Source: a virus. From it: 42,626 bases of DNA. The translations under genes were made by a program, and so were the position numbers. The stretch spans positions 1 through 42,626 of the IMG/VR virus record IMGVR_UViG_3300013131_000090, one strand, 5' to 3'. The number at the start of each line of letters is the position of its first letter. The stretch's first letter is position 1. The notes under the pieces were generated by a model. It was given only the letters and a program-made list of their open reading frames with translations. It did no database searches and was not told the origin of the DNA. Positions 5,126 to 42,232 of this stretch are shown in pieces.

Positions 5126-5132
5126 GGTATTA

Positions 5133-9764: not shown

Positions 9765-9773
9765 GGAGAAACA

Positions 9774-10448
9774 ATGCAAATTAGTGTAAGTGAATTTTTA
9801 GAAAAAGTATCTAAATTAAAAACAGACAAAGAAAAAATTGAAGCATTAAAATATAATGATTCTCTAGTATTACGTTCTGTTTTACAAGGAGCGTTTGATC
9901 CAAATGTTAAATGGTTATTGCCAGAAGGAACTCCTCCTTATAAATCTAATGAATTAGTAGATCAAGAACATATCTTTATAAAAGAAGTAAGAAAATTACC
10001 ATATTTTATAGAAGGATTTTATCCACAATTAAACCAAAATAAAAGAGAAATGATGTTTGTGGAAATGTTAGAATCCATAGATAAAAATGATGCAATTATG
10101 TTATGTCATTTAAAAGATAAAAAATTACCTTGGAAAGGTATAACTGGATATCATGTTCAAGAAGCTTTTCCAGATTTAATGCCTAATTATGTTTACGAAC
10201 CTAATAAGGAGGAAGATAAAGAAACCTTTCTGGAGAAAAAAGATAAAATCTTATGTCCGCATTGTGGTACTGAAGGTTCTTCGAAAGCGATGATGAATAG
10301 ATATCATTTTGATAATTGTAAGAAAAAACCAGTTTTACAACAAGAAACAATAACTAATGATGTAATAGAAATACCAGATTCAGTTCACGAAGAAAATAAA
10401 ATTCTTGAAGGAATAGATTTAACTATATTAGCAGAAAAGGAGCAATAA
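9774..10448 (+). CDS. DUF6433-like protein with C-terminal zinc finger (224 aa)
   Basis: Residues 1-140 follow a family seen in T4-like marine phages (EFLEKVSKLKT..KIEALK, FDPNVKWLLPEGTPPY, QLNQNKREMMFVEMLE, CHLKDKKLPWKGITG, AFPDL), which I know as DUF6433 with no assigned role. This version adds a C-terminal CPHCG...RYHFDNCKK segment, a likely C2HC zinc knuckle, and a charged tail. A strong TAAGGAG site supports the start. It sits after RNase H as in related phages, so a DNA-metabolism role is plausible but unproven. Confidence 0.65.
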   Translation: MQISVSEFLEKVSKLKTDKEKIEALKYNDSLVLRSVLQGAFDPNVKWLLPEGTPPYKSNELVDQEHIFIKEVRKLPYFIEGFYPQLNQNKREMMFVEMLESIDKNDAIMLCHLKDKKLPWKGITGYHVQEAFPDLMPNYVYEPNKEEDKETFLEKKDKILCPHCGTEGSSKAMMNRYHFDNCKKKPVLQQETITNDVIEIPDSVHEENKILEGIDLTILAEKEQ

Positions 10449-11838: not shown

Positions 11839-12483
11839 ATGAAATTTAAACATGAATTTGTGAATTATCTAAAATTAAATACTGAAACTGTTGATGGTAA
11901 AAGACATTATGTTCTTCCTACTGGAGAAAAGTTAAAATCAGTAACAACTGTACTTGACGAAAAATTAGATAAAACAGCATTATTGGAATGGAAGAAGCGC
12001 GTTGGACCAGAAGAGGCTCAGCGCGTTTCAACACAAGCACGTAATAGAGGTACTGCTATTCATATTTTAGCAGAACGTTATGTTCTTAACGAAGAAAATT
12101 ATACGCGCGGCGCTATGCCTGTTAATATAGCATTATTTGAAACACTTATTCCACATATAAATAAGGGCCTTGATACCGTATTAGGTGTAGAAATACCGCT
12201 TTATTCAAAAGCTCTAAAGGTTGCTGGGAGAGCGGATTTAGTAGGGGTATATAAAGGTAGGCCCGCCGTTCTAGATTTTAAAACAAGCAAAAAAACAAAA
12301 AAGGTTGAATGGATAGAAAATTATATACTTCAATGTACTTGTTATTCAATGATGTTTGAACGAATGTATAAAATTCAAGTACCTCAAATAGTTATAATGA
12401 TCGCTGTAGATAATGAACCCCCTCAAGTGTTTGAACTTGAGAGGGTTAATTATGTTGGTCGTGTATTAGAGATATTTGGTTAG
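11839..12483 (+). CDS. PD-(D/E)XK exonuclease (214 aa)
   Basis: This belongs to the exonuclease family of T4-like marine phages. SVTTVLDEKLDKTALLEWKK opens the domain, RNRGTAIHILAERY supplies an early catalytic His/Glu region, AGRADLVGVYKGRPAVLDFKTSKK holds the D...(D)xK core (Asp and Lys of DFKTSKK), and ILQCTCYSMMFE is the QxxxY motif. It probably resects DNA ends in recombination with the gp46/47 and UvsY systems. It ends convergently with the minus-strand gene at 12480, sharing four bases. Confidence 0.8.
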   Translation: MKFKHEFVNYLKLNTETVDGKRHYVLPTGEKLKSVTTVLDEKLDKTALLEWKKRVGPEEAQRVSTQARNRGTAIHILAERYVLNEENYTRGAMPVNIALFETLIPHINKGLDTVLGVEIPLYSKALKVAGRADLVGVYKGRPAVLDFKTSKKTKKVEWIENYILQCTCYSMMFERMYKIQVPQIVIMIAVDNEPPQVFELERVNYVGRVLEIFG

Positions 12484-12755
12484 TTGTTGTGTAAGTGTAA
12501 TAAATGTTGAAGTAACTTATTCATACCCCTACCTTCTGTTTCTTTTCCTTTATTATCTACATGCGACCAATATGTTGAAGTATGGTGAAGAGCTAACCAA
12601 TTACCGTTGTCATCTGCATGTTCAGTAGTATTTTGACTTTTATTAAACTCTGAACGATCTTCCATATAACCAAATGAATTTAATTTTTCTTTATATTTTG
12701 GAATACGATAAGGTTTTATTTCTTGTTCTATAATAAATTGTTTAAAGGTTTTCAT
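12480..12755 (-). CDS. Predicted internal (packaged) protein (91 aa)
   Basis: It begins MKTFKQFIIEQEIKPY, nearly the T4 internal-protein leader MKTYQEFIAE. A prohead-protease cut of (I)-x-E type would fall after Glu10. The rest contains NGNWLALHHTSTYWSHVDN..G.G...LLQHL, matching the C-terminal half of the protein at 11592-11837, so these are paralogs. A late-promoter-like TTTAAATA lies 22 bases upstream and a strong terminator before that isolates it from the tRNA genes. It is the last minus-strand gene before the convergent plus operon. Confidence 0.65.
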   Translation of the reverse strand: MKTFKQFIIEQEIKPYRIPKYKEKLNSFGYMEDRSEFNKSQNTTEHADDNGNWLALHHTSTYWSHVDNKGKETEGRGMNKLLQHLLHLHNN

Positions 12756-12823: not shown

Positions 12824-12897
12824 TGGCACCGGAGGTAGGAATCGAACCCACATCTTCTGTTTTGGAGGCAGACGTTATACCATTTCACTACACCGAT
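12824..12897 (-). tRNA. tRNA-Trp (anticodon CCA)
   Basis: Cloverleaf with anticodon loop CTCCAAA (CCA), T-arm GTGGG-TTCGATT-CCTAC, discriminator G and encoded CCA tail. The acceptor stem pairs ATCGGTG with CTCCGGT with one wobble and one mismatch. It is the last tRNA of the cluster before the terminator. Confidence 0.88.
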
Positions 12898-12906
12898 ATA
12901 TTCTAT

Positions 12907-13260
12907 TTATCCAAATTTCTTCTTTAATCTTTCGTATTCTTTTCTCTCATTTTCTTTTTTCTTCTTTTTATTTATTTTTTCTGTTTCTAAAGACTTTATA
13001 TAATTTTTAAGAGCTCTTTGTTCCCATTCTTCTTCTAGTTCTTCTTCAATATATTGTATATAAATAATATTATCGTAATCGTAATCTTTTATAACTTTTG
13101 CATTATTACGTTGTTCTAATGTTAATTTATTTATATTGCTATGTAAATCTTCTAAAAATGTATCTAAATCAATATTGTATAAAAAGTTTATTGTTTTATA
13201 TAATTTTTTTCTTGAGCTAAATTTCTTAGCCTTGGCTATCAATGTTGATGTTATTTTCAT
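12907..13260 (-). CDS. Lysine/glutamate-rich hypothetical protein (117 aa)
   Basis: The N-terminal half is basic and mixed. From about residue 70 the sequence becomes highly charged (EEELEEEWEQR, KKKKKENERKEYERLKKKFG) and is probably a long helix or coiled coil. It sits between tRNA-Trp, ten bases beyond its stop, and the start of the foreign-looking island. No family is recognised. Confidence 0.6.
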   Translation of the reverse strand: MKITSTLIAKAKKFSSRKKLYKTINFLYNIDLDTFLEDLHSNINKLTLEQRNNAKVIKDYDYDNIIYIQYIEEELEEEWEQRALKNYIKSLETEKINKKKKKENERKEYERLKKKFG

Positions 13261-13305
13261 TTTCTTTCTTTTAGTCTCAGATTTTACTAAAAATTTCTAT
13301 ACGAT

Positions 13306-13345
13306 ATGGTAGGTTTCAACTATTTTGTAGATTTCCCATTCTCCT
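13306..13345. repeat. 40-base direct repeat, copy 1
   Basis: This differs from 13968-14008 only by one missing G. Copy 2 is an inner part of the 165-aa gene (13780-14277). Copy 1 forms the 3' end of the GC-richer small gene, read in another frame. The pair brackets the island and marks either a recombination event or an assembly join. Confidence 0.9.
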
Positions 13346-13571
13346 CAGATTCCAATTTTTCATCGTTTTTGGGGACTTGGTGCACAACAATTCGTTTTGA
13401 AATTTTCAAGGCAAGCGCTTCAACTTGGTACGTGACCGGCTTCGTTATAGCTTCAGGAAGGACCTTCACGGAAGCAACAATCATGCCCAATAGCGACACC
13501 ACAAAGACGGTGCCTTCGAGCAGGTTGCGCGTATTCCCTTGGCGCATAGAGAGTAGTGTTCTACCGTTCAT
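13320..13571 (-). CDS. Foreign-looking single-TM protein fragment (83 aa)
   Basis: Codon use (GGC, GTC, GTG, CTG, AAG, CCC) and base content differ sharply from all neighbours. The product has a hydrophobic stretch at about 19-41 (GTVFVVSLLGMIVASVKVL) and a charged C-terminus. Its last eight codons come from the direct repeat copied out of the 165-aa gene in another frame, so the native 3' end has been replaced. No clear ribosome binding site precedes ATG 13571. I do not recognise it. It is probably a transferred fragment rather than a working phage gene. Confidence 0.4.
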   Translation of the reverse strand: MNGRTLLSMRQGNTRNLLEGTVFVVSLLGMIVASVKVLPEAITKPVTYQVEALALKISKRIVVHQVPKNDEKLESEENGKSTK

Positions 13572-13645
13572 TACGCGGTCCGCTCATCTCAGTTGGCGAC
13601 TAGTTGGGCTCTTAGGTGATGAACTGTGGGATAGTATGGCTAGCT

Positions 13646-13697
13646 GCTCCAGGATTACTTATTAGGTCATATCAACCTATTTAGTAAATCCTGGAGC
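13646..13697. other. Long imperfect hairpin beside tRNA-Ser
   Basis: The outer stem is 11 bp (GCTCCAGGATT with AATCCTGGAGC). A one-base bulge, ACT/AGT, a small internal loop and TAGGT/ACCTA then close a seven-base loop. It sits just past the 3' end of tRNA-Ser on the minus strand. No U-run follows, so it is not a standard terminator. It could be an RNA processing or stability element, or a remnant of the element that brought the island. Confidence 0.6.
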
Positions 13698-13702
13698 CTA
13701 TG

Positions 13703-13789
13703 CGGAAGAGTGGTAGTGTCGATCTCCATGGGTTTTAAGCCACCATCGGTTTTCAAGACCGTGACGAGGGCCGCCTCGCTTACTCTTCC
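13703..13789 (-). tRNA. tRNA-Ser (anticodon TGA)
   Basis: Acceptor stem GGAAGAG/CTCTTCC is perfect, the anticodon loop CTTGAAA gives TGA, and the long variable arm identifies a serine tRNA. Unlike the other nine tRNAs here it does not encode the CCA tail, and it is GC-richer, like the island it borders. Its first 10 bases overlap the end of the 165-aa gene, whose last codons (GAA GAG TAA) lie in the acceptor stem. Confidence 0.9.
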
Positions 13790-14277
13790 TTATCTTTATT
13801 AAACTTTACAATCACTATATTGTCTTTAATTTCAGTAATTGGTTGTTTATTTCCTTGTTTTATCTTAGCAGCTTCATATTTACTTTTATCGTTAGATATC
13901 CACCAAGATTCATCTTTTGACCATATAACACTATATGTTTCTAACATATATTTTTTTAGATAATCAGATGGTAGGGTTTCAACTATTTTGTAGATTTCCC
14001 ATTCTCCTGATTGCCATATTAAACCATATTTTAAATACCATGGATGAAATTCAAAATTATCATTAAATGCTTTTAACACAATTTTACGTTTGTTTGTTTT
14101 TTTACTTACAAAACAATATATAATAGCTTTAGATGTTATTATTTTTTCTTCGTTATGAAACTTTATTTCAGTATAACCCAAATATTCCCATTTACTTAGA
14201 TTAACTCCAATCAGATATGTATCTTCTTCTTCGTATTTTGTATTTTTAGAGAATAATGTTTTTAACCAAGATAACAT
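13780..14277 (-). CDS. Hypothetical protein (165 aa)
   Basis: A soluble, tyrosine/tryptophan-rich protein of mixed charge (GEWEIYKIVETLPSDYLKKY, WSKDESWWISNDKSKYE). No family is recognised. The stop codon lies inside the 5' end of tRNA-Ser. The stretch encoding GEWEIYKIVETLP is duplicated at 13306-13345. A basic/hydrophobic start (MLSWLKTLFSKN) is too short for a membrane anchor. Confidence 0.6.
   Translation of the reverse strand: MLSWLKTLFSKNTKYEEEDTYLIGVNLSKWEYLGYTEIKFHNEEKIITSKAIIYCFVSKKTNKRKIVLKAFNDNFEFHPWYLKYGLIWQSGEWEIYKIVETLPSDYLKKYMLETYSVIWSKDESWWISNDKSKYEAAKIKQGNKQPITEIKDNIVIVKFNKDKEE
13968..14008. repeat. 41-base direct repeat, copy 2
   Basis: This is the copy inside the 165-aa gene, where it is in the coding frame and presumably original. 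See copy 1 at 13306-13345, about 660 bases away. Confidence 0.9.
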
Positions 14278-14294
14278 AACTTAATCTTTTATAA

Positions 14295-14370
14295 TGGTAT
14301 CCGTTGAGGGAATCGAACCCAACCATCACTCGCTAATCAGGCGAGGGCCTTACCGTTAGACGAAACGGAT
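14295..14370 (-). tRNA. tRNA-Ile (anticodon GAT)
   Basis: Acceptor ATCCGTT/AACGGAT, anticodon stem CTCGC/GCGAG with loop CTGATTA (GAT), normal T-arm GTTGGGTTCGATTCCC, discriminator A and encoded CCA. Confidence 0.93.
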
Positions 14371-14377
14371 ATAATAT

Positions 14378-14710
14378 TTACTTCAACCATCCTCTAGTTT
14401 TTTGAGGAAACTTTAATGTAATACCTAAGCTTTCAAGCTTTTTAATTAATTCTACATCAGGATTGAATTTTACTAATTCATCAAATAATGGTGTTCTAAC
14501 TGTTAAATTTAGTTTACCATCATGTTCTTCTTCGTAATCTCTAGAACCGTATTTTAATCCAGTTTCTGGATCTTTCTTATATAATGTAATAGTTATATAT
14601 ACATCAGGATCATTTACATCATAATCTGCGTAAGGAAACAAATCATCAGACTTAACAATTTCGCGAAGAGTTTGTATAATTTCCTTAGTATCGACCTTAA
14701 TTTCAGCCAT
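14378..14710 (-). CDS. Acidic hypothetical protein (110 aa)
   Basis: A soluble acidic protein with an N-terminal helix (TKEIIQTLREIVKSDDLFPYADYD) and a beta-type section (VYITITLYKKD). GAGGATAAATA before the ATG supplies a ribosome binding site. It ends seven bases before tRNA-Ile. No family is recognised. Confidence 0.6.
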   Translation of the reverse strand: MAEIKVDTKEIIQTLREIVKSDDLFPYADYDVNDPDVYITITLYKKDPETGLKYGSRDYEEEHDGKLNLTVRTPLFDELVKFNPDVELIKKLESLGITLKFPQKTRGWLK

Positions 14711-14842
14711 TATTTATCCTCATATTTTGCTTTTAATCTTTATAATTCAGCTAATTCTTTGTTTTTAATTTTTTTCTCTTTTATTCTATCTAATTCTTGA
14801 TGTTTTTCCCACCATATCAGAATCATAATCTTTACAAGCCAT
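14710..14842 (-). pseudogene. Decayed small gene between tRNA-Thr and the 110-aa gene
   Basis: ATG 14842 opens MACKDYDSD and hits a stop after 18 codons. A +1 shift near the ninth codon gives IWWEKHQELDRIKEKKIKNK... up to a TAA, and the same frame continues RLKAKYEDK to a second TAA at 14712. This reads as one gene of about 44 codons damaged by a frameshift and a nonsense codon. No function is recognised. Confidence 0.4.
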
Positions 14843-14860
14843 TATTTATCTTCATTTAAG

Positions 14861-14934
14861 TGGTGCCGAATATCAGAATCGAACTGATGTCACTGGGTTA
14901 CAAAGCCAGGGTAATACCACTATACGAAATCGGC
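14861..14934 (-). tRNA. tRNA-Thr (anticodon TGT)
   Basis: Anticodon loop TTTGTAA (TGT), T-arm ATCAG-TTCGATT-CTGAT, acceptor GCCGATT/ATTCGGC with one mismatch, encoded CCA. It directly abuts tRNA-Asp with no spacer. Confidence 0.88.
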
Positions 14935-15009
14935 TGGCGCCTGCGAAGGGAATCGAACCCTCCTCACCCGTTAGACAGACGGATCGCTTCACCAGACGCG
15001 TACGCAGGC
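14935..15009 (-). tRNA. tRNA-Asp (anticodon GTC)
   Basis: Acceptor GCCTGCG/CGCAGGC, anticodon stem TCCGT/ACGGG with loop CTGTCTA (GTC), encoded CCA. Its 5' end begins at the base after the stop codon of the MazG-like gene. Confidence 0.92.
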
Positions 15010-15324
15010 TTATTGATGATGAAAGTATTTATTACTTCTTAAATAAGTAAAATCATAGTATTCTAAATCAATAATATCTGAAATATCATTATTAAATTGC
15101 ATTAATGCAATTGCTTTTACTACATCATTTAATTCACGTTCTAAATCTGTTCTATTTCCTTTATGATTCGGATTAGTAGGATCAAAAGAATTATAACCGT
15201 GTCTTAAAATTTTACCAATAGCTTGTTGAACTTCACCTAATTCTTCAGACAGATATGCTAATCTTTCTAATTCAGGTGGAGTCAATTTGTTGAAAATTTG
15301 TACAAGTTGGTGTTCCATTTTCAT
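15010..15324 (-). CDS. MazG-like nucleotide pyrophosphohydrolase (104 aa)
   Basis: The all-alpha NTP-pyrophosphatase signature is present: LSEELGEVQQAIGKILRHG gives the ExxE metal site and DLERELNDVVKAI the downstream ExxND-type half. The start is ATG 15324, five bases after GGAG; longer frames would overlap the upstream gene further. Its end touches tRNA-Asp. It hydrolyses a nucleoside triphosphate, but the substrate cannot be read from sequence. This is one of two MazG-like genes here. Confidence 0.7.
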   Translation of the reverse strand: MKMEHQLVQIFNKLTPPELERLAYLSEELGEVQQAIGKILRHGYNSFDPTNPNHKGNRTDLERELNDVVKAIALMQFNNDISDIIDLEYYDFTYLRSNKYFHHQ

Positions 15325-15508
15325 CATATCTCCATTCATCAGGAAAATTGGGATCTTCAAAATTATTAATTTCAGCTGCTAATATAATATTTAAATTACA
15401 ATCCATAGAACCTGTAGTTTCATCTTCAACATAATGTTTACACCCATAACAAAATTTTTCAAAGAATAATTCTGCTTCGGTTCCATTACTAGGACGATAT
15501 AACCTCAT
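15272..15508 (-). CDS. Conserved phage protein with cysteine motif (78 aa)
   Basis: RPSNGTEAELFFEKFCYGCKHY...MDCNL, then DPNFPDEWRYDENGTPTCTNF, matches a widespread small phage family with RPxNGTEGexF, CxxC, C and DPxYPxEW. Four to five cysteines suggest one zinc site. Function unknown. AAGGAT precedes the ATG, and the gene overlaps the MazG-like gene. Confidence 0.65.
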   Translation of the reverse strand: MRLYRPSNGTEAELFFEKFCYGCKHYVEDETTGSMDCNLNIILAAEINNFEDPNFPDEWRYDENGTPTCTNFQQIDST

Positions 15509-15530
15509 TATATTAATCCTTATATTAGAA

Positions 15531-15607
15531 TGGAGAGCCAGGTCGGGCTCGAACCGACATTCTTAGGTTTTGCAGACCGTGCCGTAACCATTCCGGCGCA
15601 CTGACTC
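15531..15607 (-). tRNA. tRNA-Cys (anticodon GCA)
   Basis: Acceptor GAGTCAG/CTGGCTC with one wobble pair, anticodon loop CTGCAAA (GCA), T-arm GTCGG-TTCGAGC-CCGAC, discriminator T, encoded CCA. Its 5' half is also read as the end of the 60-aa gene. Confidence 0.92.
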
Positions 15608-15745
15608 AATTTCTTCTTTTAATTCTTTTAAAGCTATCTTTTTAAGTTTTTCTTCTTTAAAATTTATAATTTCACAACAATTACAACCTAATCTTTTGGT
15701 TTTTTTACCTTTTAGATTAAATCTACCAGATTTAGGATATTTCAT
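15563..15745 (-). CDS. Small CNCC-containing protein running into tRNA-Cys (60 aa)
   Basis: A GAGGT site precedes ATG 15745. The first 45 residues look like a normal lysine-rich phage protein with a CNCC motif. The last 15 are encoded by the 5' half of tRNA-Cys, which supplies the stop codon. The tRNA therefore probably inserted into or recombined with the gene's 3' end. No function is recognised. Confidence 0.5.
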   Translation of the reverse strand: MKYPKSGRFNLKGKKTKRLGCNCCEIINFKEEKLKKIALKELKEEIESVRRNGYGTVCKT

Positions 15746-15759
15746 ACTACCTCAATTTT

Positions 15760-15835
15760 TGGTGCGGGCAGAAGGATTCGAACCCTCGTCTCTTGGTTGG
15801 AAGCCAAGCATAATTAGCCTTTATACTATGCACGC
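15760..15835 (-). tRNA. tRNA-Gly (anticodon TCC)
   Basis: Anticodon stem CTTGG/CCAAG with loop CTTCCAA (TCC), T-arm GAGGG-TTCGAAT-CCTTC, acceptor GCGTGCA/TGCCCGC with one mismatch, encoded CCA. Confidence 0.9.
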
Positions 15836-15858
15836 TCTTTTTCTTTTATGATACAATT

Positions 15859-15935
15859 TTATTTTTCAGAATGATTTTTACCAATATAAAATTTACCATT
15901 AATTTTGTTTGTTATTCTATAAACTGTGTAAACCA
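15859..15935 (-). pseudogene. Remnant of a GIY-YIG homing endonuclease
   Basis: The frame reads VYTVYRITNKINGKFYIGK and ends eight codons later. VYxIYxITNKINGKxYIGK is the N-terminus of Seg/I-TevI-like GIY-YIG nucleases. Only the first strand pair survives, with at best a TTG start and no downstream nuclease residues. It lies between a secreted-protein gene and tRNA-Gly. Confidence 0.6.
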
Positions 15936-15951
15936 ATATACCAACCACGCA

Positions 15952-16281
15952 TTATTGTACTTTTGCATTTTCTATATAAACTGGAATACATACTCTACTA
16001 GAGTCATTTTTATCGTATAAAGCTACAAAGAAAATTTTGTTTCCGTTTGCCCAAAAAGATACTGATACTTTAACATTATCAAAATCGTTAGCAACTATTA
16101 CTTGAAATTTTTCTTGTGAAACAAAAGATTTGAATGAATTTAAATCTAAACAAGGGATTTTGTATTCTTTTTCTGTAGTTTGTGCCAATGAAACATTACT
16201 AAAGCTCAAAGAATTTCTATGAAACAATGAAACATTACTAATGAAAAACAAACTAATTAAAGATAAAAGTAATTGTTTCAT
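15952..16281 (-). CDS. Exported protein with signal peptide (109 aa)
   Basis: The start MKQLLLSLISLFFISNVSLF is a charged tip plus hydrophobic core, with a likely cleavage near SLAQ-TT (about residue 34). The mature part has one distant Cys pair and alternating hydrophobic residues (VKVSVSFWANGNKIFFVALYD), suggesting a small beta protein in the periplasm. GGGCAG precedes the ATG. It could change the host envelope after infection. No family is recognised. Confidence 0.65.
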   Translation of the reverse strand: MKQLLLSLISLFFISNVSLFHRNSLSFSNVSLAQTTEKEYKIPCLDLNSFKSFVSQEKFQVIVANDFDNVKVSVSFWANGNKIFFVALYDKNDSSRVCIPVYIENAKVQ

Positions 16282-16425
16282 TATCTGCCCTTTCTTAATG
16301 TAATAAGGCCGCCGTTTTGTTTAAGAAGACGTGGTCTCAGCCTGCTAGAATATAAACAGAATTACTAACGGCACCCCTATACTACTGTTATACTGACCTT
16401 TCTCTGTTACTATTCAGTATCTAAT
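16282..16425 (-). other. 144-base gap, GC-richer leader upstream of exported protein
   Basis: No protein frame is visible. On the minus strand GCCGTT and AACGGC, about 60 bases apart, can pair around a section containing GCAGGCTGAGACC. It does not fold as a tRNA by eye. It may be the 5' leader of the exported-protein gene or a decayed gene. Confidence 0.35.
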
Positions 16426-16500
16426 TGGTGGACCCAAAGGGAATCGAACCCTTACTATCGGATTGCAAAACCGACGTGCTCCCATTATCACTATGAGCCC
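16426..16500 (-). tRNA. tRNA-Ala (anticodon TGC)
   Basis: Acceptor GGGCTCA/TGGGTCC with wobble pairs, anticodon loop TTTGCAA (TGC), T-arm AAGGG-TTCGATT-CCCTT, encoded CCA. Confidence 0.9.
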
Positions 16501-16525
16501 ATATTAAACTTAACAACCTGACATA

Positions 16526-16744
16526 TTATTCCTTATCTTCAGGAACAGGAATATCCTGAGGTTCTTCATTTACTTCTGTTTCATTAAGTACCTGTGGTTC
16601 TGATTTTGCTTCTTCTTTCACTTCTTTATCTTTTAATTGAGCAACATCAGATAAACCTTTCATAATCCCACTTAGCAAGCCACCCAAGGCTTCGCCAATT
16701 TCTTTTCCTAATTGCTTAACGCTTTCTGGAGAACCATCTACCAT
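16526..16744 (-). CDS. Acidic small protein (72 aa)
   Basis: The N-terminal half (VKQLGKEIGEALGGLLSGIMKGL) is a glycine-rich amphipathic helix. The C-terminal half is strongly acidic and probably disordered (EVNEEPQDIPVPEDKE). It sits between tRNA-Ala and tRNA-Glu. No family is recognised; an amphipathic helix with an acidic tail could bind membrane or protein. Confidence 0.55.
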   Translation of the reverse strand: MVDGSPESVKQLGKEIGEALGGLLSGIMKGLSDVAQLKDKEVKEEAKSEPQVLNETEVNEEPQDIPVPEDKE

Positions 16745-16771
16745 GTATTTACCCCTTAAAATTTAAGAATT

Positions 16772-16849
16772 TGGTGCGGCTGACGGGAATCGAACCCGCA
16801 TTATCTTGATTGAAAGTCAAGTGTCCTAGTCCATTTAGACGACAACCGC
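16772..16849 (-). tRNA. tRNA-Glu (anticodon TTC)
   Basis: Acceptor GCGGTTG/CAGCCGC, anticodon stem CTTGA/TCAAG with loop CTTTCAA (TTC), encoded CCA. Its first 15 bases form the end of the 55-aa gene. Confidence 0.93.
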
Positions 16850-17002
16850 ATTAGTAATTATATCAAACACACACCAAACGATATCTATGATAACTTCTGG
16901 TACATTAGGGAATGTACTTTTTGATTCCCGTATATATTCTTCATAATTATTAGTATTTTCTTTAATTTCTAATAATCTTATTGCAAGTTCTTTATGTTCC
17001 AT
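16835..17002 (-). CDS. Small hypothetical protein ending in tRNA-Glu (55 aa)
   Basis: ATG 17002 overlaps the stop of the preceding 67-aa gene. The frame starts MEHKELAIRLLEIKEN and runs through an aliphatic stretch (VIIDIVWCVFDIIT). Its last four codons and TAA (GCG GTT GTC GTC TAA) are the 5' strand of tRNA-Glu. The ribosome binding site is weak. No family is recognised. Confidence 0.5.
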   Translation of the reverse strand: MEHKELAIRLLEIKENTNNYEEYIRESKSTFPNVPEVIIDIVWCVFDIITNAVVV

Positions 17003-17195
17003 GTTTATTTATTTCTACAAGTATATAATCATTAACTTGTTCTAATGTTTCATTAATAATTCTAATACCAAAATCTAGAGTTTTCTCATCTATATTTGGA
17101 AACTTTTTTATCATTATTTCTTTAATTATTTCTGTGTCGTCTATTTCTTTATGAGTAGAAACAAACAATTTTATAGTTTCATCAGTTATTAACAT
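16992..17195 (-). CDS. Hypothetical protein (67 aa)
   Basis: A small, mostly helical acidic protein (MLITDETIKLFVSTHKEIDD, then FGIRIINETLEQVNDYILVEI). It follows tRNA-Asn by 13 bases and overlaps the 55-aa gene. No family is recognised. Confidence 0.55.
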   Translation of the reverse strand: MLITDETIKLFVSTHKEIDDTEIIKEIMIKKFPNIDEKTLDFGIRIINETLEQVNDYILVEINKHGT

Positions 17196-17208
17196 ACAAA
17201 CACCTTTA

Positions 17209-17286
17209 TGGCTCCCATCGTAGGGATCGAACCTACCTCATTCTCGGTTAACAGCCGAGCGCATTCACCATGATTGCTAGATGGGA
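17209..17286 (-). tRNA. tRNA-Asn (anticodon GTT)
   Basis: Acceptor TCCCATC/GATGGGA, anticodon stem CTCGG/CCGAG with loop CTGTTAA (GTT), encoded CCA. It is the first tRNA of the cluster in the direction of transcription. Confidence 0.93.
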
Positions 17287-34731: not shown

Positions 34732-35253
34732 TTATAAACTCGTGATTTTATAGTGTGTGTATTTGAAAGCTGCTTCTACAGTTAAATATTTTACATCTAA
34801 ATCAACAGTATTTAATGTTAAATCGCCTAGACGTATTGGAAAAGCATCAATAAATGTTATTTCATAATTGATCATTTTGTTATTATTTTGTATTAATAAT
34901 GAAACATCAGAATATATACCATCACCAGTATATTGTGGATGATTTTGTATTTCTTTATATTGTTCAAAAGATTCAGGTTTACCATATGCTATTATACAGT
35001 TCCAAATTTCTAGATAATTTATAAGATCTTCATCAACTTTATATACTATGTTTAATTCTCCAAAAGTAACATGTTCACCAGTATAAGGTGCTACGACAAA
35101 AGGATTACCTACATCTACAGATTTAACAAATATTGAAGGAAGATTTATCTTTTGTATGAAAAAATTAACAGAAGGAGCCTTTTTAATCTTAAATTCGAAA
35201 TTAAGTTGTGATAAAAAGTTTCTGTTTTCTGGTATGTTTGATAATACTGTCAT
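34732..35253 (-). CDS. Tail tube/baseplate-type structural protein, gp19-like (173 aa)
   Basis: The sequence (ENRNFLSQLNFEFKIKKAPSVNFFIQKINLP, GEHVTFGELNIVYKVDEDLINYLEIWNCI, then ITFIDAFPIRLGDLTLNTVD) follows the tail-tube-like fold proteins of T4-like marine phages, close in length to T4 gp19 (163). These form stacked rings inside the sheath or a tube-to-baseplate joint; which of the two is unclear. A late-like AATAAATA (35294-35287) lies about 35 bases upstream. TAATG overlap with the preceding gene. Confidence 0.6.
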   Translation of the reverse strand: MTVLSNIPENRNFLSQLNFEFKIKKAPSVNFFIQKINLPSIFVKSVDVGNPFVVAPYTGEHVTFGELNIVYKVDEDLINYLEIWNCIIAYGKPESFEQYKEIQNHPQYTGDGIYSDVSLLIQNNNKMINYEITFIDAFPIRLGDLTLNTVDLDVKYLTVEAAFKYTHYKITSL

Positions 35254-36086
35254 TAATAGACTACTTTCGGTTTATTTACTATTGTATATTTATTAATTAA
35301 AGGATGTATAGTTTCTTCTACTTTCTTTTTATTTTCTGGTGTTAATTTATCATACCAATCCGGTATAGTTCGTTCTTCTGAATCTAAACCATGATCAGAA
35401 ATTATTGCTAATTTATCTCTAAAATTATTATTTCTATAATGATATAATCTATGTCTTATTGGCAATTCAGTATAACTTCCTGTTTGAGAAATAGATTTAT
35501 TGTTTCTTAAAAATATTCTTTCTATTTCATGTCTTTTTTGTGCAGTAAAAGCAGATAATTCTCTCTTAGAATTATAATATCCTGTTGGATCTGATTGATC
35601 GTCGTATTCTGGATCTTGTTCAATGGCTTTGCCATGATAATCTACTAAATGTTGAAACTCATGTCTAAACGCACCATAATGATTGTTTAATGAATCTAAA
35701 AATTTTCTATGTGTTACTTCAATATGATCGTTAGGATCAGGTTCATGTATTCTATTTAATAATATAAAATGTTGTCTGTTTTTTACTATATCTCTTTTAG
35801 AATTTGGTGTTTGTCTATATTCTGCTTCATTAACACTATCAGTTTTTCCTAAAAATATGCTAGATTTACTATATTTTCTTTTTAAACTTTTGTTTATAGG
35901 AAGATCTTGTATACGAACACCAAAGTGATTGTAATCAAAATTGTTAATTTTTCCTGTTTTTAAAAGCCTCTTAAAATTATCAGGATCTCTTAAATGTTGT
36001 TTAAGACCCATCCAAATTAATTTAGAATCAGTATCATGTATACTATTATTATTATATTTAATTTGTTCTAATATTTTACGAAACAT
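35253..36086 (-). CDS. Putative zinc metalloprotease, possibly packaged (277 aa)
   Basis: FRHEFQHLVDYHG carries HExxH (His142, Glu143, His146), the zincin active site, and SKRELSAFTAQKRHEIE about 30 residues later could give the third, Glu ligand. The protein is soluble and basic. It starts MFRKILEQI, a weaker form of the shared leader ((I)-L-E followed by Q), and lies at the end of the operon of packaged-protein candidates. In that setting it may be injected to cut a host protein. No known family is recognised; substrate unknown. Confidence 0.5.
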   Translation of the reverse strand: MFRKILEQIKYNNNSIHDTDSKLIWMGLKQHLRDPDNFKRLLKTGKINNFDYNHFGVRIQDLPINKSLKRKYSKSSIFLGKTDSVNEAEYRQTPNSKRDIVKNRQHFILLNRIHEPDPNDHIEVTHRKFLDSLNNHYGAFRHEFQHLVDYHGKAIEQDPEYDDQSDPTGYYNSKRELSAFTAQKRHEIERIFLRNNKSISQTGSYTELPIRHRLYHYRNNNFRDKLAIISDHGLDSEERTIPDWYDKLTPENKKKVEETIHPLINKYTIVNKPKVVY

Positions 36087-37134
36087 ATCTAGCAGCTAAT
36101 CTTATTTCTTTATGACCTAAATGTTTTTCTATAGGATCTTTATTGGATATAGAAAAATATTTATTTGTTCTACCATCATAACCATCTACAATAATATTTG
36201 GTTTTCTTCTTAATTCGTCCCAAGTTTTAATTTCTTGTGGAGATAATGACCCTGAATGTAAATGTAATTTTTGTTTAGTTGTTAAATGATGGTAGAAATC
36301 AGCATTAGACATATTAGAACCAACAGTAGAGCCTGAAGATTTTATCATAAAAGTTTTTCTTGGTCCATGTTCTCCAATTACCCATGATCTAATAGATTCT
36401 TCATTAGGAAGGTGAACAGTATATTCTCCTTCTTTTTCTTTCGTTGTTTTTTTATATTTAATTGTTCTGTATTTATCACTATAAACAACTTTTCTTGATA
36501 AAATTTGTTTAGTTCCAATTAATAATTTAGATTTTTGTTTTGTTTTTTTTGTTGCTTCTGTTATGTTACCATATTTTTCCGGTTTTAAATGTTTCCATAA
36601 TGCTAAAGATTCTGTTATTTCTTCTTTTTTCTTTACAGAAAATCTACTACTTTTATTCATATATGTATCTAAATTCGTATTAGGAGGGATATCTTGATAT
36701 TCTCTTTTAGCCATATCGTATACTTGCATATGAATATCAGGCATACTTTTTAATCTGTCATATACTTTAAATGCGCCTTTAGATAACGCATAATCTGAAT
36801 GCCAATGTATTCCATGATTTGTTACTAAATGATGTATAAATTCATGTGCTGGCAACTTATTTCCAAATCCATTCATATTATCAACATAAAATTTGTTGTC
36901 TCTAGTAATATTACCATATACTCCTAAAGAAATATGATCGTTAGGCTCATGTAAAGCAAAATGTACACCAGGACTGTTTCTATGATAATATCTAGATACT
37001 TTATGATTACCAATATTTGAAATATATTCTCTAGTAGGTTTTTTTGGTTCTTCTTTATATGGTGTTAAATCTTTTTCTTTATCTACATCATTATAAAAAG
37101 GGGCTTCTTTTAAATATTGTTTAAACTTTTTCAT
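36076..37134 (-). CDS. Predicted packaged protein with two related domains (352 aa)
   Basis: It begins MKKFKQYLKE-AP, an excellent T4-like capsid targeting peptide with a gp21-type L-K-E/A cut. The rest holds two similar domains (about 40-150 and 215-335). The first has EFIHHLVTNHGIHWHSDYAL, LKSMPDIHMQVYD; the second has DFYHHLTTKQKLHLHSGSLS, LRRKPNIIVDGYD. The repeat resembles a domain in unknown proteins of T4-like marine phages. The HEFIH in domain 1 is not conserved in domain 2, so it is probably not a protease site. It overlaps the genes on both sides. Confidence 0.65.
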   Translation of the reverse strand: MKKFKQYLKEAPFYNDVDKEKDLTPYKEEPKKPTREYISNIGNHKVSRYYHRNSPGVHFALHEPNDHISLGVYGNITRDNKFYVDNMNGFGNKLPAHEFIHHLVTNHGIHWHSDYALSKGAFKVYDRLKSMPDIHMQVYDMAKREYQDIPPNTNLDTYMNKSSRFSVKKKEEITESLALWKHLKPEKYGNITEATKKTKQKSKLLIGTKQILSRKVVYSDKYRTIKYKKTTKEKEGEYTVHLPNEESIRSWVIGEHGPRKTFMIKSSGSTVGSNMSNADFYHHLTTKQKLHLHSGSLSPQEIKTWDELRRKPNIIVDGYDGRTNKYFSISNKDPIEKHLGHKEIRLAARYVS

Positions 37135-37399
37135 ATCTTATTACCGCGTAATGGATTTCTAAAATTGCATCTTCTAGCAATATATTAAACCATTCACCCT
37201 TAGTTCTTTTATGATTTAATACTTTATGTATTTTCTTTTCTATGTTCTTTACATCTGATTCTAATACTTCTTTAGTATATAGAAGGCTTAATTTGTGTGG
37301 ATATCCTGTTTGTAACGATTTTAATCGTTTTTGAGGTTCTTTGGAAAATCCTATTTTATATGGTGAAGATATAGATCCAATTATATAGATGTAACTCAT
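37121..37399 (-). CDS. GIY-YIG superfamily protein, T5orf172/MUG113-like (92 aa)
   Basis: SYIYIIGSISSPYKIGFSKEPQKRLKSLQTGYP with LLYTKEV, EKKIHKVLNHKRTKGEWFNI is the short T5orf172-type GIY-YIG nuclease: YIY...KIG as the two strands, an Arg in KRLKSL, and the conserved KGEWF. It lies inside the late operon among packaged-protein candidates but lacks their leader, so it may be a small nuclease expressed with them or a mobile gene. Confidence 0.7.
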   Translation of the reverse strand: MSYIYIIGSISSPYKIGFSKEPQKRLKSLQTGYPHKLSLLYTKEVLESDVKNIEKKIHKVLNHKRTKGEWFNILLEDAILEIHYAVIRYEKV

Positions 37400-37860
37400 T
37401 TTAATCCCTTTAATATATCTTCATTAGGAGTATTTATAGGATGTTTTGCTACTCTAGTTAAAATATTATGATCTAATACGGCTACTTCAGTTTGATCTAT
37501 AGGCAATCTGCTAGTTCTTATTTGTGGTTCTTTACCTGATTCTCTAGGAGAAGGTAAATCAACATACTTTTTAGATCCATAACTAGCTATCGTTGTTTTG
37601 GGTATTTTAAAAATATGTAATGTTTTTAAGCCTTTTGCGTATTTTTCAGAATATCTTTTTGCCCAATTTATAGCACCATGTGCTTCTTCTTTATTATTAG
37701 GGTCAAGTATATATCCATATAACCCCTTTCCTAATGGCCTAATATTTCCTGGTTCCCCCGTACCATATTTTTTAGGGTCTATTTGATCAAAATCACTTCC
37801 ACCATGAATCATATAGTAATGATCTTGTTGTTCTTTTAAAAAGGATTTAAACGACATCAT
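37396..37860 (-). CDS. Putative ADP-ribosyltransferase, probably packaged (154 aa)
   Basis: Leader MMSFKSFLKE-QQ fits the capsid targeting pattern. The body follows the ART fold: MIHGGSDFDQIDP (the H/R strand), GTGEPGNIRPLGKGLYGY as in ART-like domains with GTGEGxxxxGxGLYF, then WAKRYSEKY, and DQTEVAVLDHNILTRV, which has the Q-x-E catalytic motif placed like EMEV in T4 Alt. T4 packages Alt and injects it to ADP-ribosylate host RNA polymerase, so the analogy is direct. Family assignment is by motif only. Confidence 0.5.
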   Translation of the reverse strand: MMSFKSFLKEQQDHYYMIHGGSDFDQIDPKKYGTGEPGNIRPLGKGLYGYILDPNNKEEAHGAINWAKRYSEKYAKGLKTLHIFKIPKTTIASYGSKKYVDLPSPRESGKEPQIRTSRLPIDQTEVAVLDHNILTRVAKHPINTPNEDILKGLK

Positions 37861-38324
37861 TTTTTAGTGACTCCAAATTGTATTCTACCATCAGTTGTTC
37901 TATGCAAAGCTGCTACTTTAGGATCTTGTTTTATTTTTGGTGGTTCTTGTAAATCAGTATATCCTAATCCTTTTAACATAGAATAAGCAGCATGTCTAGC
38001 TAATGTTGTATCTTCTAGAGCTTTAGATTTATCATATAAATTATCTTTATGATTTATCCAATAATCTCTTTTTCTTCTTGCTATAGACATTTGATGTGTA
38101 TAATGTATTTTTGTATTTGGTTTATCATCACCTAAATGTTTTTGTATATGTTGTAATACATACATATTAGTTAGATGTCTTCTAACATATTTGTGTACAT
38201 TTTCTGGTGTTAATTTAGGTTTTAAATCGTCAGAAACTTTAGCATTATCATCATAAAATGTTAATTGATCGTGATTGGCTTCTGTTAAAGATTCGATATT
38301 AATATATTGTTTAAAAGATTTCAT
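37857..38324 (-). CDS. Predicted packaged protein (155 aa)
   Basis: MKSFKQYINIESLTE-AN gives the shared leader with an ideal gp21 site (L-T-E/A). The mature part is basic and His/Tyr rich (HKYVRRHLTNMYVLQHIQKH, SIARRKRDYWINHKDN), typical of DNA-associated internal proteins. No enzymatic motif is seen. ATGA overlaps on both sides tie it to the ART-like gene and the 30-aa gene. Confidence 0.65.
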   Translation of the reverse strand: MKSFKQYINIESLTEANHDQLTFYDDNAKVSDDLKPKLTPENVHKYVRRHLTNMYVLQHIQKHLGDDKPNTKIHYTHQMSIARRKRDYWINHKDNLYDKSKALEDTTLARHAAYSMLKGLGYTDLQEPPKIKQDPKVAALHRTTDGRIQFGVTKK

Positions 38325-38413
38325 TTTAAGAATTTCCTAAAATGTTTATTTAAAGTATTATCATCGTTATAAGGATCAAATTCTTCTTCTATAAAAAATT
38401 TAAAAGACCTCAT
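38321..38413 (-). CDS. 30-aa peptide that is nearly all targeting leader
   Basis: AGGAG precedes ATG 38413. The product starts MRSFKFFIEEEFDPYND and ends after 30 residues in a TGA overlapping the next ATG. It has the MxSFKxF(I)xE leader with an I-E-E cut site, leaving only about 20 residues. It is the first gene after the late promoter at 38444-38451. It may be a small packaged peptide or a relic of a larger internal-protein gene. Confidence 0.65.
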   Translation of the reverse strand: MRSFKFFIEEEFDPYNDDNTLNKHFRKFLK

Positions 38414-38443: not shown

Positions 38444-38451
38444 TATTTATA
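38444..38451 (-). promoter_or_regulatory. Late promoter TATAAATA for the packaged-protein operon
   Basis: Exact TATAAATA on the minus strand, 31 bases before the 30-aa gene and the run of packaged-protein candidates down to 35253. It diverges from the gene at 38512. Confidence 0.75.
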
Positions 38452-38966: not shown

Positions 38967-40328
38967 TTACATCAAATTATTTACAATAATTCTTCTGTAA
39001 TACTTATTAGTGCTGATCACATTAGAACGACCAGAACCCTTTGTTAAACCTTCAGCGAATGGATTTGCTACCATACCATAACGGGTTTTAAATCCAATCT
39101 TAGGTTGGAATGAACCTTGATCAACAGCACGCACCATTTGTAGAGGAACGTAAGGACAATAGAACAGACCTGCGTCAAACGCATTAGATCCTTTATATCC
39201 CATAGTTAGATAATTGCCACCGATAGCATAAGGATCGATATAAACTCTTATACGTCCATTAAGCACACCAGCAAAGGTATTACCTGTATCGTCTACTTGT
39301 AGATTGTTGCTATTTAGAGCAGGTGTATAATCTAGAACACCAGCCATTTGTAGAGCCGAAGCTACGTCAGAAGAACAGATAACGATATTACCTTTCCCTC
39401 TACGGGTTTGTTTAGCGATTTGGTTAGCTTCACGTTCTAATTGGAACATTAAGCCTTTAAACTTTTCAACCATCCAACGACCGTTAGAGTCGGTATCTAA
39501 GTCGAATACACCAGCTACAGTTACGTTTTCTTGTGCACCAGGAACAGCTGTAATATTAATTGTACGAACAACTTCACGATTAATTTCGGCTAGAATTTCT
39601 GCAGAAAGAATATTAGATAATTCTGTTTCTGCGTCTAATCCATGAATTGCCTTTAAGTCTTGTGCAAGTTCCATGGTATATTCTGCTTTTAACGCGCGAG
39701 TATTAGCAGTAACAGTAACCTTTTCAATGGTGAACGCCATTTCTGGGAAGGCTGTGTTAGAATCAGTACCTAACGCTTCTGCTTGTGCAACACCCATACC
39801 CAAACCAGTATTATATGTATTAACAGCGGTTAACGGAGAAGTATTAGTTGCTCCAGGTATTGTACCAACGAATTTTTGACCGAAGGTATTAGCACCAGTA
39901 GTAACAGATGAATGTTGAGTATTTACTTCGTTATAGAATGTTTCGTCGCCTGTTTGATTTGCATATCTTGATCTCATTGCGAAAATAAGACCAGTAGGAC
40001 CAGTCATTGGTTGTACGCCACAAACATCATATGCTATTAAATTAGGCATAGCACGACGAACTAACGAAATTAATACAGGATCGAAAGTATCAATACCACC
40101 TGAACCTGCTGTAGAGCTAGAAGCCCCCATAAAGTTAACAGGAATAGTAGAAGATGTTTCTGTTAATGTTTGATATTGACCGTGTACTCCTGCTTCTATT
40201 AAAGCTCTTTCAGTATTTTCAAGTACTGTAGCAGTAACATAACGTTTGTGATAGTCTTTAATTTGACCACAAGATTCGTGGTCTAATACAGGCCCCCACT
40301 TTTTTTGAATTTCCTCAGCTAAATACAT
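38967..40328 (-). CDS. 23: Major capsid protein gp23 (453 aa)
   Basis: HK97-fold T4-type capsid protein, shorter than T4 gp23 (521) and close to cyanophage versions. Recognisable parts: WGPVLDHE near the start, FDPVLISLVRRAMPNLIAYDVCGVQPM, GLIFAMRSRY, and the C-terminal VPLQMVRAVDQGSFQPKIGFKTRYGMVANPF. A gp21 cut is likely near residue 60 (TLTE followed by T). A late promoter lies 39 bases upstream, a terminator follows, and it is preceded by scaffold and protease genes as in T4. Confidence 0.95.
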   Translation of the reverse strand: MYLAEEIQKKWGPVLDHESCGQIKDYHKRYVTATVLENTERALIEAGVHGQYQTLTETSSTIPVNFMGASSSTAGSGGIDTFDPVLISLVRRAMPNLIAYDVCGVQPMTGPTGLIFAMRSRYANQTGDETFYNEVNTQHSSVTTGANTFGQKFVGTIPGATNTSPLTAVNTYNTGLGMGVAQAEALGTDSNTAFPEMAFTIEKVTVTANTRALKAEYTMELAQDLKAIHGLDAETELSNILSAEILAEINREVVRTINITAVPGAQENVTVAGVFDLDTDSNGRWMVEKFKGLMFQLEREANQIAKQTRRGKGNIVICSSDVASALQMAGVLDYTPALNSNNLQVDDTGNTFAGVLNGRIRVYIDPYAIGGNYLTMGYKGSNAFDAGLFYCPYVPLQMVRAVDQGSFQPKIGFKTRYGMVANPFAEGLTKGSGRSNVISTNKYYRRIIVNNLM

Positions 40329-40379: not shown

Positions 40380-41519
40380 TTATCTTTTACCTAATCTAGA
40401 TAAAGATTCTACATATCTATTAACTGCAGGATTAGTTACAACTTGTTTCTCTTCAGTATCAAAAGTTTCTTCTTCTATATTAGAAGAAATCACTTTCGTT
40501 TTATCTGAGAAATAAGTTTCCTTAATAATCTTCAGTTTCTTTTCAAATGTTTCTATATCACCATCGAATTCGATACCTTCAGCAAGAGTTTTAAACTTTT
40601 CTTGTTGTGTTAGTGCAAGACCTTCTGAAAGTTCTTCCAATATTTCCTTTTTAGCAACAGTTATTAAAACTTCTTTATATTCATTATTTTCAGTTAATAC
40701 TGAATCTAAATCTTTTTCTAATACTTCTATCTTATTAGATAAAGCTTCAACAACATCTACTTTGCTTTCAGGGATATCAAAATTATGTTCAACCATCAAA
40801 TTCTTTAATCCATTAATAAATTCTGAAGTAATTTCATTTCTTAATGTAGATTCAATTGCTACTTCGTTTTCAGACATCCAATTTTCTACTACATAATCTA
40901 TATATGAATCTAATTTATCTGTTAATTCTTCTGTAAATATTTGTAATTCTTCTGTTACTTGTTGTACATATTCTTCTTCTAATTTAGCAACTTCTAATGC
41001 AACCCTAGCGCCAACTGCTGCTTCAAATAATACAGATGCTTTTTCTGTAAATTCTTCTGATAATTCTTTAGAATTAAACATAATTTCTATTTCTTCTTTT
41101 GACAAAGAAGGCATATAATCTTTATAATGAGGTTCTCCTCTACCTACAGCAGCAGAAGGTTTCATATTTAAAGTAGATTGATTATGATCAGAATTATCAT
41201 CTACTCCATAAGATTTACCTGGTCCAAATTGAGACATTACTTGATTGAAAAAATTAACTTGATCTGATGCTGACATTCTATTCATTGCATTCATTACACC
41301 AGACATCATTCCTAATTTAGATGTAGAAAGAGCTTGTGGGTCTGTTATTGATTTAGCAGCAGGATGTAATGAAGATGCAGCTTCTGTTTCTTCTTCAACT
41401 GTTTCTTCTTCAACTGTTTCATCTTCAACTGTTTGTTGTTCTGTTACAGATTTTTTAGAGATAGCTTTTTTAGAAGTTACCTCTTTAATTACTTCTTCAA
41501 GTTTTCCTTTTTTTAACAT
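40380..41519 (-). CDS. 22: Prohead scaffold protein gp22-like (379 aa)
   Basis: A very acidic, helical protein between protease and capsid genes, the gp22 position. The N-terminal part has a repeated EEETV segment, and much of residues 150-330 is coiled coil (EKASVLFEAAVGARVALEVAKLEEEYV, VVEALSNKIEVLEKDLDSVL). It forms the core around which the prohead assembles and is then digested by gp21; several (L/I/V)-x-E sites are visible. It is longer than T4 gp22 (269). AGGAG precedes the ATG. Confidence 0.85.
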   Translation of the reverse strand: MLKKGKLEEVIKEVTSKKAISKKSVTEQQTVEDETVEEETVEEETEAASSLHPAAKSITDPQALSTSKLGMMSGVMNAMNRMSASDQVNFFNQVMSQFGPGKSYGVDDNSDHNQSTLNMKPSAAVGRGEPHYKDYMPSLSKEEIEIMFNSKELSEEFTEKASVLFEAAVGARVALEVAKLEEEYVQQVTEELQIFTEELTDKLDSYIDYVVENWMSENEVAIESTLRNEITSEFINGLKNLMVEHNFDIPESKVDVVEALSNKIEVLEKDLDSVLTENNEYKEVLITVAKKEILEELSEGLALTQQEKFKTLAEGIEFDGDIETFEKKLKIIKETYFSDKTKVISSNIEEETFDTEEKQVVTNPAVNRYVESLSRLGKR

Positions 41520-41560: not shown

Positions 41561-42232
41561 TTACTGTTTTTTAACTAATAAAGAGGCTAAATGATTTTCC
41601 CAAAGAATTAATTTTGCTTCTTCTAATTGTTGTTTAGAATAAGTTTTAATTTCTTTCTTTACTTCATGTAGTTTTTCTTCTAACCATGTACCTTTAATTG
41701 GATCATAAATCCAATCTACATTTTCCATAATACCATTAACGAATGCACCTGGTGCACTAGGATCAGCTACTATATCTGCTGCAGTTGCTAATTTAAAATC
41801 GTTTTGAACTTCCATTATTCCGTTCGAATTTTTTTGTAAAGAACCTAAACCTCTTGAAGAAACACCTAAAGAAGCACCGGAATTTAATAATCCTTTTGCT
41901 AATTCTCCCATTGGAGTTTCTGTTAATTTTGCTTTACCAATAAATACATTACCATCTCTCTTTAATTCGGTTATAAGATGAGATACTCTATGAAGATTAA
42001 TTTGTGGTCCTTCCGGGTGACCTAACTCGCCATATCCTCTTCCTTGTTCTACATTTTCTTTAAGATATCTAGCAACTTCTTGTTCTAAAACATTCATACG
42101 ATATATTCTACCGTTTTTATTTTGTTTTTCTGCTACTAAGAAAGGTCCAGTGATATAATAATCTTTGCCACCTTTTTTATTATCTTCGGTAATATATTCT
42201 ATGTTTTCGGTTAATTCTGTTATAAGTTTCAT
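41561..42232 (-). CDS. 21: Prohead core protease gp21 (223 aa)
   Basis: A T4-type serine prohead protease: GPFLVAEKQNKNGRIYRMNVLEQEV, the catalytic His in GELGHPEGPQINLHRVSHLI and the catalytic Ser in SLGVSSRGLGSL, with DFKLATAADIVADPSAPGAFVN after it. It cleaves scaffold, capsid protein and internal proteins after (L/I)-x-E inside the prohead; the leaders of the genes at 35253-38413 carry such sites. Length matches T4 gp21 (212). ATGA overlap with the partial gene upstream. Confidence 0.93.
   Translation of the reverse strand: MKLITELTENIEYITEDNKKGGKDYYITGPFLVAEKQNKNGRIYRMNVLEQEVARYLKENVEQGRGYGELGHPEGPQINLHRVSHLITELKRDGNVFIGKAKLTETPMGELAKGLLNSGASLGVSSRGLGSLQKNSNGIMEVQNDFKLATAADIVADPSAPGAFVNGIMENVDWIYDPIKGTWLEEKLHEVKKEIKTYSKQQLEEAKLILWENHLASLLVKKQ

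Follow-up and report, generated by a model that had tools for sequence, protein, structure and literature searches.

An uncultivated T4-like phage carries, beside its major capsid gene, a compact operon in which several proteins with dissimilar bodies begin in nearly the same way, and this raises the question of what the common start is for. The phage is represented by IMG/VR record IMGVR_UViG_3300013131_000090. The window, by which we mean the whole 42.6-kb stretch that was analyzed (29% GC), contains the operon at positions 35253-38413 of the minus strand, where genes of 30, 155, 154, 92, 352 and 277 aa follow one another with overlapping stops and starts. A leader of the type MKxFKQ[FY]..[LI]xE stands at the start of four of these six genes and of a fifth, distant gene at 12755. 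We consider it very likely that this leader is a capsid-targeting sequence (CTS) of the T4 type, cut by the prohead protease gp21. A sequence-only reading of the window had proposed as much, and the proposal is borne out by controls in T4, by the positions known to matter in the T4 internal protein IPIII, by a virus-specific distribution and by published virion proteomes.

On the minus strand the head module runs in the order gp21-type protease, gp22 scaffold, gp23, the operon and a tail-tube gene. The features on which the argument draws are the following.

41561-42232, minus strand: gp21-type prohead protease, the predicted leader-cutting enzyme (Pfam Peptidase_S77, 2.2e-29; PHROG head maturation protease, 1.4e-69).
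40380-41519, minus strand: core scaffold of the gp22 type, on which the leader is predicted to dock (Pfam T4_CASP, 2.8e-56), with TATAAATA 39 nt upstream.
38967-40328, minus strand: gp23 major capsid protein (PHROG major head protein, 1.1e-162), with TATAAATA 46 nt upstream.
38444-38451, minus strand: late promoter TATAAATA(CTA), 38 nt upstream of the first start codon in the cargo operon.
38321-38413, minus strand: 30-aa open reading frame (ORF) with leader MRSFKFFIEE-E, an upstream AGGAGC like a ribosome-binding site and an ATGA overlap with the next start; its status as a real gene is uncertain.
37857-38324, minus strand: 155-aa cargo with a long leader like that of T4 IPI, MKSFKQYINIESLTE-A.
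37396-37860, minus strand: 154-aa cargo with leader MMSFKSFLKE-Q and a body that resembles an ADP-ribosyltransferase at the motif level only.
37121-37399, minus strand: 92-aa GIY-YIG (MUG113/T5orf172) protein without a leader (Pfam MUG113, 4.5e-15), with its own TATAAATA 39 nt upstream.
36076-37134, minus strand: 352-aa cargo with leader MKKFKQYLKE-A, the motif HEFIHH and internal ITE sites at residues 173 and 191.
35253-36086, minus strand: 277-aa protein with an HEFQH motif and no canonical leader (it starts MFRKILEQ), whose single (L/I)xE site is ILE-Q at residues 5-7; its membership in the capsid-targeted set is uncertain.
12480-12755, minus strand: 91-aa distant cargo gene with leader MKTFKQFIIE-Q, outside the head region and adjoining tRNA genes.

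The sequence-only reading had treated the whole interval as a leader family and had listed six N-termini. Four genes of the interval conform, while those at 37121-37399 and 35253-36086 lack the canonical leader. Aromatic residues at positions 4 and 7, with (L/I)xE at the end, are found in five window ORFs, those starting at 38413, 38324, 37860, 37134 and 12755. The sixth listed start, at 11592 (MKSLKEFIKSTIE-F), belongs to a plus-strand ORF with Leu at position 4 and TIE in place of (L/I)xE, and is probably not a member. A strict pattern (Met, an aromatic residue or Leu, two residues, an aromatic residue or Leu, a hydrophobic residue, x, Glu), tested on ORFs of at least 60 aa, matched 3 of 72 in the window, compared with 0.17 expected when the first 40 residues were shuffled (P=0.0006). 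Outside this count fall the 155-aa ORF, with its longer IPI-type form, and the 30-aa ORF, which is too short to be included. The three smaller leader proteins each contain (L/I)xE followed by A, G, S, Q or E once, at the end of the leader. The enzyme and core required by such a signal, gp21 and gp22, are both encoded by the same phage together with gp23, which itself possesses a gp21-type site, LIE-AG, near residue 45.

Comparison with T4 provides a positive control. Among 67 T4 genes the strict pattern matches exactly ipII and ipIII, which both start MKTYQEFIAE-A, and this result serves as the outside check on the pattern. IPI starts MKTFKEFTSTTTPVSTITE-A (MKTFKEF...ITE-A). The window leader MKSFKQYINIESLTE-A is like IPI with its longer leader and the other window leaders are like IPIII, in which residues 4 and 7 are needed for targeting and residues 8 and 10 for processing (PMC9026906); these four positions are the ones kept in the window leaders. 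The T4 internal proteins share with the window set a leader that is 10-19 residues long and has aromatic residues at 4 and 7, a hydrophobic residue at 8 and Glu at the cut, as well as late transcription (predicted for the window operon), unrelated bodies behind one leader and the presence of gp21. The window set differs in its bodies, which are unrelated to those of T4, in its MKxFKQ consensus, in that packaging and cutting are predicted, and in the arrangement of the genes as an operon beside gp23, whereas the T4 internal protein genes are sited elsewhere.

If the leader is a protein signal of T4-like phages, it should be found in viruses rather than in cells. IMG/VR was scanned with a degenerate DNA pattern for MKxFKQ[FY], in which residues 1-2 and 4-7 are fixed, and a match was called start-like when an in-frame stop lay just upstream and at least 50 aa were open. 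The scan gave at least 123 matches in at least 120 loci. Among the matches listed, 117 of 123 were start-like and 109 of these 117 have Glu at positions 9-11; in 82 non-redundant bodies Glu occupies position 10 in 65%, against a background of 6%, and where it does so position 8 is L, I, V, M or F in 46 of 53. Since the scan pattern fixed only residues 1-2 and 4-7, the bias at position 8 and at the Glu is independent evidence for a cut site. With a scrambled motif, a scan run to completion yielded 67 matches, of which 14 were start-like, a result near chance, and in cellular genomes the leader pattern was start-like in 38 of 119 cases, with Glu at 9-11 in only 3 of the 38. T4-like core genes lay within the fetched stretch for 92 of the 120 leader loci listed and for 9 of the 67 scrambled loci. 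A wider leader pattern applied to 20 whole viral records yielded 21 matches, compared with none for a reversed control. The search for the motif beyond the window thus reveals a leader that is virus-specific and linked to T4-like phages. One contig without T4-like core genes (L090) encodes at 4567-5841 (plus strand) an HK97-type capsid protein (Pfam Phage_capsid) that starts MKTFKQFLESKGITE, which may be either chance or a shared maturation signal. In many small proteins from unrelated contigs (L105, L106, L112, L141, L156) a short recurring module, CWxGYxxxGxKxKxGxxVPNCVPE, lies after or near the leader.

The bodies behind the leader are diverse. With the leader removed, 199 leader proteins, some of which are short or divergent and may be chance matches, fell among the matches listed into at least 93 families, 67 of them singletons, at E 1e-4. 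Pfam matches include adenylate kinase, Zeta-toxin-like kinase, cytidylyltransferase, HD_4, ART-PolyVal, NT5C nucleotidase, RimK, Zn_protease, GNAT and lysozyme. The swapping of cargo behind a common leader, proposed from the few window genes, is therefore upheld on a scale of some 90 unrelated body families. Leader genes are often clustered, with seven in L097, six in L137 and five in L086; in L097 six of the seven form one island between sheath and tube-like genes. Such clusters of differing bodies speak against a single paralogous family and support body exchange. The L097 island, in the region 6505-9422 (minus strand), includes an ART-PolyVal ADP-ribosyltransferase (1.5e-12) that also has a match, below the threshold, to the anti-CRISPR AcrIF11. 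In L104, L116, L133 and L079 the leader is found on Zn_protease-like and RimK ATP-grasp-like proteins, which may be packaged and serve to modify ribosomal protein S6 or targets like it.

The cargo bodies of the window operon had no relatives in IMG/VR or phage records, nothing above noise in Pfam, NCBIfam or PHROGs and no useful match in PDB; for the body at 12755 the search covered the family libraries. AlphaFold2 models of two window cargos without homologues had pLDDT values of 40 (the 154-aa cargo) and 35. The 154-aa body may resemble an ADP-ribosyltransferase at the motif level, since it aligns with an ART-PolyVal cargo over HG..GxGxY with z about 2.3, in a protein with no profile match and a model of pLDDT 40. 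In this it may be likened to T4 Alt, a late, head-packaged ADP-ribosyltransferase that is injected with the DNA (PMC9026906), from which it differs in its small size. The two internal ITE-[SA] sites of the 352-aa cargo flank a lysine-rich linker, so that this protein may be processed by gp21 into two domains, as if it were a polyprotein. For the 155-aa cargo a candidate homologue at L057:6302-6889 (z 5.0) was dropped when the similarity shrank to a weak 56-residue match.

Do proteins with such leaders occur in virions? The virion proteome of the T4-like cyanophage S-CREM2 lists 52 proteins with coordinates (PMC10665884, Table 3). Most of these were translated and the genome was searched with the strict leader pattern. 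Five annotated genes have a strict leader, and the virion list includes every one of them.

gp6: SAM hydrolase, MKDFDSFLEE.
gp13: MKDLHSFLTE.
gp14: kinase, VKRFDAFLTE.
gp136: MQTFSMFFSE.
gp154: cytidylyltransferase, MKNFSSFLTE.

Compared with 52 of 219 genes overall, this gives a hypergeometric P=6e-4, a value that is somewhat optimistic because the strict pattern was written after some S-CREM2 N-termini had been seen. The NMNAT of S-SCSM1 (MKSFLQFLKEA) and the cytidylyltransferase of S-SM1 (MKKFSAFLNEA) are also virion proteins. S-CREM1 was considered as a further proteome, but no virion labels are given in its record. These cyanophage enzymes (NMNAT/cytidylyltransferase, kinase, SAM hydrolase) thus have the same kind of leader as the window cargos and are found in virions; their bodies differ from those of the window and the proteome papers, which leave open whether such enzymes are packaged or co-purify, do not call them capsid-targeted. 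The leader offers a packaging reason for their presence. In S-CREM2 (L165) a virion-detected, Cas9-like nuclease at 7704-10313 (minus strand) contains a leader-like LRFASFMAEA 16 residues after the annotated start; it is preceded by CTG with no standard start and was excluded from the leader count. If the CTG were used as a start, this nuclease would be a packaged cargo.

The sequence-only reading had also reported an exact late promoter at the start of the operon, and TATAAATA is indeed exact at 38451-38444. The octamer occurs 16 times in the window compared with 18.6 expected, neither more rarely nor more often than by chance, and because of this it was dropped as a stand-alone argument; the evidence lies in its placement. 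In the head region each of the four minus-strand copies precedes a start codon by 38-46 nt (those of gp22, gp23, 38413 and the GIY-YIG gene). From this spacing, which is like that of gp22 and gp23, the cargo operon is predicted to be transcribed late. The copy belonging to the GIY-YIG gene (37438-37431) sits inside the preceding cargo gene.

With only slightly less assurance than for the CTS itself, we hold that the best explanation as a whole combines targeting, docking, cutting, packaging, ejection and exchangeable bodies. The cargo genes would be transcribed from the TATAAATA promoter, as a tightly overlapping late operon, together with the head genes. Each cargo would dock, through its aromatic residues at positions 4 and 7, on the prohead's gp22 core, and gp21 would then cut after (L/I)xE at residue 10 (residue 15 for the long leader) and so release the mature protein within the head, to be packaged with the DNA and ejected with it into the host. 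Since the leader alone would carry the address, unrelated bodies could be exchanged behind it. We infer the docking, cutting, packaging, injection and function of the window cargos from these parallels. That they are injected into the host is likely, by analogy with T4, and they would then act in the first minutes of infection, as the sequence-only reading had proposed.

Several observations weigh against this explanation, in addition to the reservation about the S-CREM2 P value. Two operon genes, those for the GIY-YIG and 277-aa proteins, have no leader, and the residue after the leader Glu is Gln in two window leaders, compared with Ala or Arg in the T4 internal proteins. The window capsid protein is closest to that of Stenotrophomonas phage DLP6 (71%), followed by the Sinorhizobium phiM12 group (63%), and DLP6, the nearest isolate, has a single clear leader gene (AAY80_066, MMKFTQFLAES). 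Several gp21-related contigs gave no leaders under one pattern. The virion data come from the relatives S-CREM2, S-SCSM1 and S-SM1 and not from the window phage, and one leader protein, S-SCSM1_30 (MKTFKQFMSES), has no virion label.

This last observation would also be expected if the leader did target the prohead core but the proteins were assembly helpers like gp67 and gp68, degraded or lost at maturation rather than injected. In T4 the core proteins gp67, gp68 and gp22 are largely removed after cutting (PMC9026906), and some leader families are small and conserved, one having 12 members of about 105 aa. However, leader-bearing enzymes persist in the purified virions of three phages, many of the bodies are enzymes with no plausible scaffold role, and helpers should be conserved whereas the leader bodies are hypervariable; we therefore regard this alternative as unlikely. 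It is very unlikely that detection in cyanophage virions reflects contamination by abundant late proteins, with some other role for the leader. The proteome papers themselves leave co-purification open, but in S-CREM2 all five annotated leader proteins are detected, against 52 of 219 genes overall, and the leader corresponds to a T4 signal that has been proven by experiment.

Two further alternatives dispense with a targeting signal. A-rich early codons can help initiation, and the leader codons are A-rich, so that the common start might be a feature of translation or of the mRNA rather than of the protein. This has almost nothing to recommend it, because the GC-richer S-CREM2 keeps the aromatic residues and xE but not K5 and Q6 (MKDFDSFLEE, MKNFSSFLTE), because Glu at 10 and a hydrophobic residue at 8 would be left unexplained, and because cellular matches to the same DNA pattern lack the Glu. 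We give equally little credence to the notion that the cargo proteins are paralogues that have diverged from a common ancestor, in which the leader is merely the best-kept part. The cargo genes do lie side by side and the two HExxH proteins (36079 and 35256, of the 352-aa and 277-aa genes) are weakly similar (z 2.5), but the other window pairs are dissimilar (z -1 to 0.6) and the bodies found elsewhere have different Pfam folds.

The CTS interpretation is not new in principle. T-even phages are already known to have the mechanism, the leader and the exchange of bodies behind it (PMC9026906; PMC12373910, citing Repoila 1994), and the contribution of the window is a set of new members of a known T4 mechanism. 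What appears to be new is how widely the leader occurs among marine T4-like phages and how well it agrees with virion proteomes; no report of this leader in such phages was found in the open literature, which does not prove that none exists. Since the tag is on many unrelated proteins in related phages, some of them detected in virions, a start shared by scores of different proteins probably marks those delivered into the host with the viral DNA. We regard it as fairly probable that a single N-terminal code, M-K-x-F/Y-x-x-F/Y-[LI]-x-E, marks the packaged and probably injected proteome of T4-like phages, both marine and freshwater, and that it has recruited, in the small sample considered here, some 90 or more unrelated families, including kinases, nucleotidyltransferases, ADP-ribosyltransferases, HD phosphohydrolases and nucleotidases. 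If so, sequence alone would allow injected effectors to be predicted across whole genomes, as with secretion signals. Most accessory genes of marine T4-like phages are of unknown role, and a leader that predicts packaging makes many of them testable candidates for proteins that are already in the host cell at time zero, such as anti-defence factors or modifiers of transcription or nucleotide metabolism. Because IPI, IPII and IPIII of T4 block type IV restriction (PMC12373910), bodies swapped behind a fixed leader are plausibly the record of an arms race against host defence.

The ejection proteins of the giant phage SPN3US and the P1 proteins DarA and DarB are likewise carried in the head and delivered with the DNA, those of SPN3US after processing by a head protease; they differ from the window cargos in protease and signals. 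We know of no MKxFKQ leader in either group.

The site of the operon is itself variable. In relatives the stretch from gp23 to the next tail gene changes in content and is empty in some. L009, L024 and L040 have a gene there whose start is GIY-YIG-like, S-CREM2 has an intron-type endonuclease, DLP6 an exonuclease and L022 a leader gene; in L024 a leader-like gene follows the GIY-YIG-like gene. The GIY-YIG-like and other endonuclease genes in L009, L024, L040 and S-CREM2 make this gap look like a homing-endonuclease hotspot, and the GIY-YIG gene of the window island would fit a role of homing-type endonucleases in island turnover. In L038 and L039 leader genes flank the gp21-gp23 block on both sides.

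Elsewhere in the window, eight tRNA genes (Trp, Ile, Thr, Asp, Gly, Ala, Glu and Asn) lie at 12824-17286 on the minus strand, beside the leader gene at 12755. A run of plus-strand genes at 4167-8928 appears by eye to be of sugar-nucleotide type (cytidylyltransferase-like, GmhB-like phosphatase, transaldolase-like and GHMP-kinase-like) and, again by eye, resembles a heptose pathway.

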